From an uncultured Clostridia bacterium (GTDB lineage: Bacteria > Bacillota > Clostridia > Lachnospirales > CAG-274), in the NCBI GenBank assembly GCA_947628755.1, contig CANRBC010000010.1, positions 33,311 to 97,310 on the forward strand: DNA of 64,000 bases, given 5' to 3'. Of the stretch, positions 636 through 6,276 are shown piece after piece. Made by a program: the position numbers and the translations under genes. The notes below the pieces were generated by a model. That model ran no database searches. It was not told the origin of the DNA and worked only from the letters and a program-made list of their open reading frames with translations. How positions within the stretch are numbered: position 1 is the stretch's first letter; each line of letters begins with the position of its first letter.

Positions 636-1142
636 ATGACAAAAAACAATAGTTCAAACAACCAAGTTATAGATACTGGCTTTTTCACAATAAAAGGAAA
701 TATTCTTCTTTCTGATAATATATTTATACAAATGAGCAACATAACAAGAGTATGGACAGGACAGCTGCCAAAAAAGCCATTACCTTTAATACCGGTAATT
801 ATCTTGATAATAGCAGGTATTATATTATTTGATATTAAAATCTGGTTAGCAATATTGGCAATTATAATTGCAGGTATTATAATATTTGTAAATGTTAAGC
901 AAACAGTATATCATGGAATAAATATTGAGTTAAATTCCGGCAATATCTACTCTTTTATATGTGATGATCCCTCTTATGTAAAAAAAGCTTTTGATTGTTT
1001 ATCCCAATGTATTTACAATAAAATAAATTACAACAAATATTATAAGATCAATTTAAATAATGGTGTTATCAATTCTGGAGTAATTAACTCAGGTAATATT
1101 GAAAGTTCAACAGTAGCAGGTGAAATTAATAATAATGTATAA
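636..1142 (+). CDS. DUF6232-like small membrane protein with C-terminal N/G-rich repeat motif
   Basis: ORF with RBS aaaggagg; TGFFTIKGNILLSDNIFIQMSNITRVWTG N-terminus, two hydrophobic TM segments, C-terminus NNGVINSGVINSGNIESSTVAGEINNNV. Confidence 0.75.
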   Translation: MTKNNSSNNQVIDTGFFTIKGNILLSDNIFIQMSNITRVWTGQLPKKPLPLIPVIILIIAGIILFDIKIWLAILAIIIAGIIIFVNVKQTVYHGINIELNSGNIYSFICDDPSYVKKAFDCLSQCIYNKINYNKYYKINLNNGVINSGVINSGNIESSTVAGEINNNV

Positions 1143-1470
1143 GAAAAAAACATTAAAAATAAATAATGGTTTTATAATAAACGGAACTGTAAATACAGGA
1201 AATATTATAAATAGCAATGTGAATGGTTCTGTAACATATAATAACTACTGGAAAGACATAGAAGATGAAATTGAAATACTTTGCGATAATTATAATAAAT
1301 TATATAATAACGTAAAGGACATTGAATTTTTAAAAAATATGGAAAGTGCAGCAAGAGAAAAAAACCAAAGCAAATTAAAAAAAATAATTAGCAGTGCTCC
1401 GGCTTTGATAAAAGCTTTTATTAAAGAGCTTGGTTTGAGCTTGCTCGTTCAATTAATAACTAATACTTGA
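1135..1470 (+). CDS. small protein with N-terminal N/G-rich motif and helical/amphipathic C-terminus
   Basis: ATG at 1135 overlaps the end of the previous ORF (GTG at 1120 also possible); NNGFIINGTVNTGNIINSNVNGSV near the N-terminus, C-terminal PALIKAFIKELGLSLLVQLI. Confidence 0.7.
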   Translation: MYKKKTLKINNGFIINGTVNTGNIINSNVNGSVTYNNYWKDIEDEIEILCDNYNKLYNNVKDIEFLKNMESAAREKNQSKLKKIISSAPALIKAFIKELGLSLLVQLITNT

Positions 1471-2557: not shown

Positions 2558-4531
2558 ATGAACGTATTAAAAATAGGAGCAATAAATGGTGTTACAGACA
2601 GACTACAACTATGTAATAAAGATAATTTAGAGGGGGTTGAATATCTTAAGAATGATTATTTAGACACAAATTCGTATTTTTGGAATGAACAATTAAAGGA
2701 ATCTAAAATTAATAACTGTATTAGTTTTATAACACAGAGTACCATACAATTACCCACAGAAATATTATGGGTCTTGAATAACAACGAGCAATTTATATTA
2801 AAATTGAGAAAAGCTAAAGATGCTATAAAAAACCCTTTTTTTTCATCTCAAGAACTATTTGCCTGTTTAGAAACTTTGCAGATTGCTTGTGAATTAATAT
2901 ATTATGCTGACACTGTTCCCTTTAAATTAAATGTAGCATCTGGATTTATGCAAAGCAATGAATCTGCAAAAGAAATGCTTGAAGGCTGTTTGCATTATTA
3001 TTGTAATCCATATTTATCATTTATAATCAATTGTGTTATGCCTTTAATCAGCAATTATTTTCCAGATATTATACTTTTAGAAGGTAAACCTAATATTGCT
3101 ACTTTTGCGATAGCAGTTTTAGCAAGAAAAATCTTTCCAGATTTAAAGATTGGAATATATGGACATTCTTCGGAGTATTATTCATTAAATAAAATTATTC
3201 ATCTTCTTCTTAAGAACAGGTATTTATTTAGTGTTTTTGACTTTATAATTAAAGATTATGATACAGATACAATTATAAAATTGTGTGACACATTAGAGTC
3301 TGGTGGAGAATTGCAAAATATCCCTAATTTAATATATACACCAGATAGAGGGAAAACCATTTACCAGAATTCATCAGAATGTACAAAAAATACTGAATTA
3401 CAAATAAGTAGTTCCTATAAACCTATAGATATAAAACTATTTCCTAATAACCATTGTTTTTGGAACAAGTGTTCATTTTGTGGAATTAATAGTAAATATA
3501 TAACATCCGAAGATCACAAATCATGGGACTTGAACAAGGCATTTCAAATTTTGGAGCATTTAAATCTACAAGGTATAAAAAAAATATGGCTTATTGACGA
3601 AGCAATACCAACAGACATTTTGAATTCTATCGCTCAAAAAATTAATGAAAAAAATTGGCATTTTGAATGGCATGTACGAACCAGAATAGATAAAAAACTT
3701 TTAAAAAGTAATGTTTGTGAGAACCTTGCTAATTCTGGATTAAAACACATATTATTAGGTCTAGAATCTGCTTCCGACAGAATTCTTAAACTGATGAACA
3801 AAACAAAAGATGATGATTATATTGAAACAGCGGAACTAATTGTAAAAAAGTTTACAGAAAACAATATATCGGTCCATTTCCCTGCTATAATAGGTTTTCC
3901 TACTGAAACTGATGACGAGCGGGATCAAACAATAAATTTTTTAAAATATTTGAGAGATACCTATTCTCTATTTACATATAACGTAAACATTTTAGAACTT
4001 GATGTCAGTAGTGATCTCTATAAAAATTTTGAAAAATATGATATTTGCAATTTATTTTATCCATGTACTCCATCATCGTTTATAGGTAATTCTATACAAT
4101 GGGGAAATGACATATCCGTTTTAAAAGAGATACAAAAGGAAGCTCTCTATTATTTGTTTCCATGGTATCCTAATAGTTCACTATTAAAAATAGACTTTTT
4201 TTACAAGTATTTGGAATATACAAGAATGCCTTTGAATAATAAAAACTGGGATAAAATGCATACGTTTAGAACAATTACTATAAACTCTGATAAAATATGT
4301 ATTAATGATTATTGTGATATGCTAAAATTAAAAAACGGTAAATATGCATTAATAAATCATAACACTTATCAATTTGTTATAGGTGGAGAAATATTAAATC
4401 AAATTTTCAACTATAAAAAATGGATACTGTGTAAAGACATCATTTATAAATTCCCTGAAAGATTAAGGAAAAATGTCCTAGATTTATTACAATGCTTATT
4501 AAATTATCAAATAATAAAGATAAGGAGGTAA
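2558..4531 (+). CDS. radical SAM protein (B12-type architecture) with PqqD/RRE-like C-terminal region
   Basis: 657 aa; CFWNKCSFCGI (CX4CX2C) radical SAM motif; HILLGLESASDRILKLMNK and GFPTETDDERDQT are typical radical SAM core; upstream Rossmann-like PDIILLEGKPNIATFAIAVLARKIFPDLKIGIYG; C-terminus YALINHNTYQFVIGGEILNQIFNYKKWILCKDIIYKF...LLQCLLNYQIIKI resembles PqqD. Confidence 0.85.
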   Translation: MNVLKIGAINGVTDRLQLCNKDNLEGVEYLKNDYLDTNSYFWNEQLKESKINNCISFITQSTIQLPTEILWVLNNNEQFILKLRKAKDAIKNPFFSSQELFACLETLQIACELIYYADTVPFKLNVASGFMQSNESAKEMLEGCLHYYCNPYLSFIINCVMPLISNYFPDIILLEGKPNIATFAIAVLARKIFPDLKIGIYGHSSEYYSLNKIIHLLLKNRYLFSVFDFIIKDYDTDTIIKLCDTLESGGELQNIPNLIYTPDRGKTIYQNSSECTKNTELQISSSYKPIDIKLFPNNHCFWNKCSFCGINSKYITSEDHKSWDLNKAFQILEHLNLQGIKKIWLIDEAIPTDILNSIAQKINEKNWHFEWHVRTRIDKKLLKSNVCENLANSGLKHILLGLESASDRILKLMNKTKDDDYIETAELIVKKFTENNISVHFPAIIGFPTETDDERDQTINFLKYLRDTYSLFTYNVNILELDVSSDLYKNFEKYDICNLFYPCTPSSFIGNSIQWGNDISVLKEIQKEALYYLFPWYPNSSLLKIDFFYKYLEYTRMPLNNKNWDKMHTFRTITINSDKICINDYCDMLKLKNGKYALINHNTYQFVIGGEILNQIFNYKKWILCKDIIYKFPERLRKNVLDLLQCLLNYQIIKIRR

Positions 4532-4537
4532 ATTATT

Positions 4538-4720
4538 ATGTATAAGGAGTTTATTTCATTTAAGAACTCAACAGAGTTTACCACTAAGGACAATACAAAC
4601 GCTACTGCAACAGCAAGTTATTTGTATAGTTCTTTGTCAGGTGGCGGCGGTAACGGAGGTGGCGGAGCAACCGGTGGGGGTGACAATAGTGGCACAAATG
4701 GTGGGGGCAAAACCAAATGA
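4538..4720 (+). CDS. glycine-rich 60-aa peptide, candidate RiPP precursor
   Basis: MYKEFISFKNSTEFTTKDNTNATATASYLYSSLSGGGGNGGGGATGGGDNSGTNGGGKTK; RBS aaggagg overlaps the radical SAM stop codon (coupled translation). Confidence 0.8.
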   Translation: MYKEFISFKNSTEFTTKDNTNATATASYLYSSLSGGGGNGGGGATGGGDNSGTNGGGKTK

Positions 4721-4762
4721 CCAACCATAAACATAACATATTAAATATTTAATATCTATTTG

Positions 4763-4798
4763 TTTAGGGAATGGATTTTAAATATCCATTCCCTAAAT
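4763..4798. terminator. bidirectional terminator-like hairpin
   Basis: tttagggaatggat...atccattccctaaa between convergent genes. Confidence 0.7.
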
Positions 4799-4806
4799 TA
4801 GAAAGA

Positions 4807-6276
4807 TTAATTTATATAATATTCTACAGATTTAATTACAGTCTTAGTTTTTTTTTGAAATTTTATAGGGCCTATTGAATAATCAAGTTTTTTGCAAACT
4901 TTTTCTTCAAATACCTTAGGGTTTCTTTCTCTGAGAACAGTTAATAAATTTTCGTTATCCCACTCATTATGTTTGTTGGATGCTTTTTCATGTCTGCTGT
5001 TTTCTATATCTTTAATAGCCTTAACACCACCAAATGAATAGTAAAATATCTGACATATTGTGAGAATATCATGTAGCTTACCAAAAATTGTTATAAATAA
5101 TTCATAAGGGGAATGATGAGAAATTTCAATCTTTGAAGTTATATCTGGATTTATATTTCTTATGACTTTTTCTGTATCAATTACTATAGGTGTTAAGTTT
5201 TCAGGTTCATTACATTTTATATTTGTTGTCAGTTCAATAGTTGCACAGGGATATTCATTTGAATTATTCAATAATATATTTTTTATTTCATCTATATAAT
5301 TTATATATCCTTTTTTAACATTATATGGAACTTTATCTGGTTGTATCTCACTTTTAATTATATTATAGATTTTATGTAATTCTTTTTTATTGAACAGACC
5401 CACATTTGCAATAAATTGGCATATATTATATAAGGAATCAAAATCCTCTTGTTTTATGGAATAATCAATTGCCTTAGGCAGCAGATAACTAATTTTTTCT
5501 GTTTGCTTATTTATTAGATAAATATTTAACACAGAAAAATATTGTCTTGTCTCCATATAATAAGGTATAAGCTTAAATATTAATTCTTTTGCTGTTACAA
5601 AATCCACTTCTTTTTTATTTCCAAGAGAAAACTTAACTGAACCTACATTTTTTTCAAAAATATTAGATAAACCAATATTGGTAACTAAGTCCAATATAGG
5701 GAAAATTATATTATCAAATTTTACATCATCATGAAATCTACAGTAACGTATTCCTATATTTCTGAGATCCATGTTAGTGAACTTAGTATTTTTTATTATA
5801 GCACGTTCAAATGAAGAATCTTTAATGTCACATGCATTGAATGTGCTGTTTTCCAAATATATATCTCTAAAGGAAACTCCTTCAAATCTTATTTTTTTAA
5901 AATTTACATTTATAAACTGACTAAAATTAAACCCCGTATTTTCTATCAAGAATTTTTCTTTTCGTTCAAAATCACATCCAGAAAAATTACAGTAATTAAA
6001 ATTGGCGCCACTAAAAAAACAATCATAAAATTTACAAACATTAAAAATTGAAAAAGCTCCATTACTTGCTTTAAATCTAGAAAAATTAAATCTACAATTA
6101 TTATATCTTGGCTTTTCTATTAAACTACCTGGAAATTCACTTCCAAAATCTCTGTTATCAGCATCTTTTGGCGGAATATGGGCATATTCTTCTGATTTTA
6201 CAGAAAACTCTCTAAACATTTGGACTGCTTCAACAAAAGCTAAATTGTTATCTTCTTTCTTTACAATTTTATCCAT
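4807..6276 (-). CDS. pentapeptide-repeat protein
   Basis: Repeats such as CKFYDCFFSGANFNYCNFSGCDF, STFNACDIKDSSFERAIIKNTKFTNMDL; long non-repeat C-terminal half. Confidence 0.85.
   Translation of the reverse strand: MDKIVKKEDNNLAFVEAVQMFREFSVKSEEYAHIPPKDADNRDFGSEFPGSLIEKPRYNNCRFNFSRFKASNGAFSIFNVCKFYDCFFSGANFNYCNFSGCDFERKEKFLIENTGFNFSQFINVNFKKIRFEGVSFRDIYLENSTFNACDIKDSSFERAIIKNTKFTNMDLRNIGIRYCRFHDDVKFDNIIFPILDLVTNIGLSNIFEKNVGSVKFSLGNKKEVDFVTAKELIFKLIPYYMETRQYFSVLNIYLINKQTEKISYLLPKAIDYSIKQEDFDSLYNICQFIANVGLFNKKELHKIYNIIKSEIQPDKVPYNVKKGYINYIDEIKNILLNNSNEYPCATIELTTNIKCNEPENLTPIVIDTEKVIRNINPDITSKIEISHHSPYELFITIFGKLHDILTICQIFYYSFGGVKAIKDIENSRHEKASNKHNEWDNENLLTVLRERNPKVFEEKVCKKLDYSIGPIKFQKKTKTVIKSVEYYIN

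Follow-up and report, generated by a model that had tools for sequence, protein, structure and literature searches.

Gene organization of the locus

The window, i.e., the whole stretch of 64,000 nucleotides analyzed here, contains close to its beginning two adjacent genes on the forward strand. The first (ORF1, positions 636 to 1142) encodes 168 amino acids, with a DUF6232-like beta-rich domain interrupted by a hairpin of two transmembrane (TM) segments (residues ca. 51 to 88, positions 786 to 899) and, at the C terminus, motif 1 (NNGVINSGVINSGNIESSTVAGEI, residues 141 to 164, positions 1056 to 1127). The second (ORF2, positions 1135 to 1470) encodes 111 amino acids, with motif 2 at the N terminus (NNGFIINGTVNTGNIINSNVNGSV, residues 10 to 33, positions 1162 to 1233) and behind it a helical bundle (residues 35 to 109, positions 1237 to 1461) that we regard as a putative effector.

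Reading of the sequence revealed plausible Shine-Dalgarno sequences before both genes, a clear one for ORF1 (AAAGGAGGT, positions 622 to 630) and a probable one for ORF2 (AGGTGA, positions 1118 to 1123) located within the 3' end of ORF1. Because of the latter, ORF2 most likely starts at the ATG at position 1135, and not at the GTG at position 1120 given in the mechanical ORF list, and the two genes therefore overlap by 8 nucleotides. Directly 3' of ORF2 there is a 10-bp inverted repeat (AAGCAAGGGC/GCCCTTGCTT, positions 1477 to 1512), possibly the end of the operon, which was not called as a terminator by a scan requiring a T-run.

The pair is flanked on both sides by Schlafen/AlbA_2 fragments on the reverse strand (positions 65 to 265 and 2055 to 2336; Pfam, 8e-14 and 1e-14), which look like remnants of broken genes and suggest a degenerating variable region. 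Further downstream, a region (positions 2558 to 4720) encodes a radical SAM protein of 657 amino acids followed by a 60-amino-acid peptide with a Gly/Asn-rich tail (SGGGGNGGGGATGGGDNSGTNGGG, positions 4538 to 4720); it looks like a maturase with a ribosomally made peptide. A pentapeptide-repeat protein of 489 amino acids comes next (positions 4807 to 6276, reverse strand), and pentapeptide proteins also occur as matched-motif partners on cyanobacterial plasmids (see below). With the Schlafen/AlbA_2 fragments and the radical SAM gene as its nearest neighbors, the pair does not lie in a clear defense island, which counts against the interpretation that we favor.

Features of the two proteins

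ORF1 matched the Pfam family DUF6232 (PF19744) with an E value of 2e-5 and 25.5 bits, slightly below the cut-off of 27.4 that was passed by its aligned relatives (L005, 30.2; Trichormus, 43.5; an Enterococcus fusion, 33.3). It shares with the family the beta-rich domain and the TM hairpin, but the Pfam model stops short of the C-terminal motif. DUF6232 is uncharacterized and was not mentioned in the open-access literature searched, and no DUF6232 protein was recognized confidently by PADLOC, another point against the favored interpretation. The membrane anchoring proposed in the preliminary description was confirmed by hydropathy values of >1.6 in 19-residue windows starting at residues 44 to 74 (two hydrophobic segments, residues ca. 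44 to 92) and by the AF2 model, which comprises strands, two TM helices (residues 51 to 64 and 69 to 88), strands, a helix, and then a tail, largely disordered in this monomer model, that carries motif 1. Both termini are predicted to be cytosolic. A fold search with the model gave nothing significant (best E value, 0.45), and PH-domain structures of GRK2 and TFIIH p62, together with an EROS-containing NOX2 entry, were listed without E-value support; that the split beta-rich domain may be PH-like is only a suggestion.

In the AF2 model of ORF2, residues 1 to 34, containing motif 2, are disordered (pLDDT of <50), while residues 35 to 109 form helices with a pLDDT of ca. 80 to 88 over most of their length, in agreement with the helical C terminus noticed earlier, and the final helix is hydrophobic. 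ORF2 belongs to no Pfam family and returned nothing of note in NCBIfam or PHROG, nor did a PDB fold search with its model find anything significant (best E value, 0.6). A JetB match (0.0037) covering ca. 50 residues of helix was rejected as helix noise, and another candidate of the ORF2 search (L007) turned out to be a histidine kinase. The ORF2 of the window had no match to the AbiTi profile of PADLOC, to which the ORF2 of genome G008 (L005, positions 1985 to 2284) showed a weak one (E value of 7e-4, residues 12 to 91).

Both genes are under purifying selection, with dN/dS values of 0.20 (ORF1) and 0.26 (ORF2) relative to the sister genome G004. In that genome (L010, positions 4678 to 5922), a gene for an IS256-like transposase is located immediately upstream of ORF1, the first ca. 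33 codons of which have been replaced.

A motif matched between neighboring genes

Motifs 1 and 2 align without gaps with 12 identical residues out of 24, and both are N/G-rich, with repeats containing spaced V/I. Their local BLOSUM62 score of 72 was reached by none of 5,000 shuffles of the ORF2 segment (P of ca. 2e-4, the floor of the test). As a background we used ca. 464 kb of the same genome, in stretches, and compared each gene's end with the beginning of the gene that follows it; among 255 adjacent same-strand pairs (mean of 18.5, standard deviation of 5.5), the next best score was 32. The initial observation of two adjacent genes sharing a 24-residue N/G-rich motif thus stands. A profile search of the whole genome gave convincing matches in ORF1 and ORF2 only. 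The RHIM/BASS3 core pattern was not found in the motifs of the window and, among the motifs tried, was seen only in the ORF2 of G170 (VTIGDNNVV).

Co-variation of the motifs in distant relatives

Distant DUF6232 relatives were retrieved with Pfam and with profiles built in this analysis. All eight two-gene DUF6232 loci examined (window, G004, G008, G170, G672, G874, an IMG/VR contig, and a Trichormus plasmid) had a matched downstream gene, and the gene order was the same in every one with an intact neighbor. The G876 locus, truncated by the contig end, was uninformative, and weak DUF6232 matches (L014, L015, L020-L023, L030, and L033-L036) were dropped, being either interrupted by in-frame stops or inside long ORFs. 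Searches of plasmids with the G170 proteins (tblastn) and of viral contigs with the ORF1 of G672 and G008 gave nothing.

Motif pairs were identified in G008 (VTINIKECTFDNGSSAVDNLYE/VNINIYNNNFKNNSSAVRNVYE), G672 (IKINIKNSQISGNAQILN/VKITVKNSSISGNSEVLN), G170 (NSPIIGGNNNKVGV/NSPVTIGDNNVVKV, with G874 as a relative), the viral contig (FSDESSVIKNMYE/FKDYSQAIGNYYE), and plasmid B of Trichormus variabilis (DNSIKVGKNIGSPLNTGHIGGDVVNQV/DRSIKIGKNIGSPSNTGYIGGDVINEV). Among five divergent DUF6232 lineages the motif sequences differ, each being closest to its own partner, and the matched assignment ranked first of 120 permutations (351 versus 299). With the six clostridial/viral pairs, a set that includes close relatives (G170 with G874 and G008 with the viral pair), the matched sum was second of 720 arrangements. 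Three clostridial/viral pairs had only modest scores (33 to 38; shuffle P of 0.003 to 0.006), which tells against the favored interpretation. A matrix of 10 pairs mixes windows defined by position (DUF6232) with windows picked after the match (other partners), and the test refers to the former only. Pairwise co-variation in homologues, set beforehand as the test of the preliminary description, was therefore found in five divergent lineages.

At the DNA level the two motifs of the window are identical at 40 of 72 positions (14, 15, and 11 of 24 at the first, second, and third codon positions, the third being the lowest). Identical residues were encoded by the same codon in 8 of 13 cases in the window, 6 of 13 in G008, 3 of 11 in G672, and 3 of 8 in G170, so the clostridial match does not reflect recent copying of DNA. 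Such copying does occur, since in Trichormus the codon was the same at 19 of 21 identical residues, and this plasmid is the one exception to our finding that a simple DNA-level duplication, the outcome that had been set against the original claim, is not supported. Given the co-variation and the lack of recent duplication, the proposal of a functional matched pair formed by a membrane and a cytosolic protein is well supported.

The pair was present in 3 of 48 genomes of the family, and one pair is on a viral contig, a patchy distribution that fits an accessory conflict system. In this contig (IMGVR_UViG_3300006145_000004, L016/L024) the pair, the nearest relative of that of G008, lies between a fragment of a type I restriction specificity subunit and a long tape-measure-like gene, suggesting phage-borne transfer.

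Natural fusions and similarly built loci

An Enterococcus contig (L062, OR846636.1) encodes a fusion of 290 amino acids in which DUF6232 is followed by an N/G-rich stretch and a helical domain of the ORF2 type. A similar fusion of 281 amino acids, adjoining a DUF4041/T5orf172 gene, was found in a Streptococcus agalactiae record; it is unscored by Pfam, and the assignment of its DUF6232 and helical parts rests on the Enterococcus fusion, to which it is similar along 95% of its length. These two Lactobacillales fusions support a functional link between both halves. When the helical domains of four ORF2 proteins were made into an HMM, it matched the Enterococcus fusion (1.7e-6) and the ORF2 of G672 (1.3e-5). 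The helical domain of the window showed no significant similarity to the other ORF2 helical domains (E values of 0.2 to 0.8), one more finding against the favored interpretation. OR846636.1 was deposited as "Enterococcus phage Efs 1-1-1," but its genes for an LXG protein and an FtsK ATPase of the EssC type point to host DNA, namely a type VII secretion locus, more than to a phage.

The ORF2 domain of Trichormus, unnamed in Pfam, is common on cyanobacterial plasmids. We examined 11 such loci, the proteins of which are mostly annotated as "hypothetical," not as pentapeptide, and in nine a similar motif was found on a nearby gene. The partner was DUF6232 in Trichormus, a two-TM protein in Fischerella, Phormidium, and (by eye) Nostoc UHCC 0926, a NACHT protein (1.9e-7) in Sphaerospermopsis, a short relative of the N terminus of the latter in Nostoc HK-01, a pentapeptide protein in Nostoc C057, and an AbiTii protein (2e-42 and 3e-45) in Synechococcus and in Nostoc SO-36, where the match is weak and gapped. 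In the Gloeothece and Calothrix loci no matched motif was seen. Profile comparison detected no similarity between the clostridial and cyanobacterial helical domains, for which we do not claim homology, and this too weighs against the favored interpretation; what ties both groups together is therefore the design, plus the DUF6232 partner shared with Trichormus.

Of six clostridial AbiTii loci, one has a matched upstream gene with a helical-looking end (L082, NNFYDSATDVNFVQG/NNFYASCTGVQIQQG, score of 44), another (L081) reads by eye as an AbiTii-N/G-rich-helical fusion, and four had no matched neighbor. Three plasmid AbiTii proteins (L078-L080), like L081, seem (by eye) to continue into an N/Q-rich motif and then a C-terminal helical stretch with a hydrophobic end containing glycine, and the four appear to be AbiTii fused to a small helical partner. 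The variety of proteins carrying matched motifs (NACHT, AbiTii, pentapeptide, and two-TM) points to conflict biology, and the NACHT and AbiTii partners, together with the AbiTi match of G008, give indirect support to a link with defense. On the opposite side, AbiTii (PF18864) is absent from the genome of the window, and neither an NLR nor an AbiTii partner was found at its locus.

Comparison with described signaling systems

Bacterial amyloid signaling as known so far is linked to NLRs and has been reported chiefly in multicellular bacteria. Ten BASS families and unclassified "other BASS" pairs have been published (PMC8086366), all of them NLR-linked in the texts consulted. The pair of the window resembles NLR-Bell BASS (Dyrka et al. 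2020; reviewed in PMC7889193) in that similar motifs of ca. 20 to 40 residues are matched across adjacent or overlapping genes, in the existence of many motif families unrelated to one another, and in having a small, helical (here putative) effector that includes a hydrophobic helix. On the other hand, Pfam found no NTPase match in ORF1, the partner is a two-TM DUF6232-like protein and not an NLR, no Bell domain was recognized in ORF2 (Pfam, NCBIfam, and PHROG), and the host is a gut Clostridia and not a filamentous bacterium. The premise taken from these systems in the preliminary description holds for the paired C- and N-terminal copies but not for their polarity: in NLR/Bell systems the effector carries the motif at its C terminus and the NLR receptor at its N terminus (PMC7889193, PMC12261475), whereas here it is the small helical protein that has an N-terminal motif and the membrane protein a C-terminal one. 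By analogy, the pair may work like NLR-BASS-Bell/HET-S signaling, but with no NLR, no recognized Bell domain, and reversed polarity, it is not a member.

With the fungal HET-S/NWD2 and HELLP/PNT1 systems it shares a two-gene cluster, one membrane-linked protein, and a matched motif, which in fungi acts by templating. There, activation sends the effector to the membrane and a cytosolic NLR serves as receptor, while in the window it is the membrane protein that presumably takes the receptor role, and there is no sequence relation.

AbiT of L. lactis is a two-gene abortive-infection system, and AbiTi of C. catus inhibits the growth of E. coli (PMC3985639). The likeness lies in the two genes, one for a small protein, in the AbiTi match of G008, and in the matched motif of L082 and the cyanobacterial AbiTii loci; the differences are that ORF1 is DUF6232 and not AbiTii and that the ORF2 of the window has no AbiTi match. 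The accessible portions of the open-access literature (2013, 2014) do not mention a matched motif for AbiTii.

Proposed function and alternative explanations

We consider a receptor or anchor coupled to an effector through heterotypic beta-solenoid/amyloid-like assembly the best reading of the pair, at somewhat better than even confidence. ORF1 would act as a receptor/sensor or membrane anchor and ORF2, translated from an overlapping gene, as a small cytosolic helical effector, the most likely distribution of roles being ORF1 as sensor/anchor and ORF2 as output. Upon activation, the tails of ORF1 would nucleate a shared stack with the ORF2 motifs, probably of stacked beta-arches, that recruits and clusters ORF2 copies at the membrane, where their hydrophobic C-terminal helix would act, probably through membrane damage or growth arrest, as in abortive infection. 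The parts of this proposal differ in strength. A specific contact between the motifs is well supported by the sequence data, and we infer with high confidence that the motifs bind each other; that this binding amounts to amyloid-like templating is moderately probable. The toxic output of ORF2 is putative, and a phage or other stress as the trigger is put forward with confidence evenly divided.

The motifs might instead form a constitutive heteromeric beta-helix that tethers ORF2 to ORF1, with no templated signal. Co-variation requires nothing beyond specific contact, a beta-solenoid is in keeping with repeats that are rich in N/G and have V/I at intervals, and the fused forms indicate that a permanent link is viable; yet the motifs are disordered in both monomer models, and the NACHT and AbiTii partners look like parts of switchable conflict systems, so we hold this static assembly to be rather unlikely. 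Still less probable is a toxin-antitoxin-like arrangement in which ORF1 keeps an ORF2 toxin silent through the matched motif. It would agree with two overlapping genes, with the weak AbiTi match of G008, and with the toxicity of C. catus AbiTi in E. coli, but C. catus AbiTi was not neutralized by AbiTii from the same organism (PMC3985639), and the fused proteins would put inhibitor and toxin on one chain.

The existence of fused genes and the shared Trichormus codons could also be explained if a low-complexity N/G-rich tract had simply been duplicated or gene-converted, or if an ancestral fused gene had split, with no functional matching. We regard this as very improbable and largely refuted: outside Trichormus the codons often differ at identical residues, the motif sequence has changed wholly across lineages with the pair still matched, and motif 1 differs from that of G004 by one nonsynonymous and three synonymous changes (motif 2, with two and one, is uninformative).

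Compared with the open-access literature, with the BASS set taken from later descriptions of it, what may be new here is a matched-motif pair that has no NLR and has a DUF6232 membrane partner. More tentatively, and with some doubt, short matched assembly motifs may be a general, NLR-independent plug-and-socket code of bacterial conflict systems, in which each partner body (DUF6232 membrane proteins, NACHT NTPases, AbiTii, pentapeptide, or two-TM proteins) would call the small helical killer next door through a private motif; classical AbiT would be one instance and the DUF6232 pair a minimal, membrane-sited, NLR-free form. To our knowledge, AbiT has long been known yet remains unexplained as an abortive-infection system, and the pair would offer a possible mechanism for it; DUF6232 and the unnamed helical domain would gain their first hypothesis on function. 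The question of how motif sequence sets who seeds whom could then be put to a very small set provided by nature: an NLR-free version from gut Clostridia that takes up 1 kb, consists of two proteins, with DUF6232 as the membrane partner, and comes in independent motif lineages.
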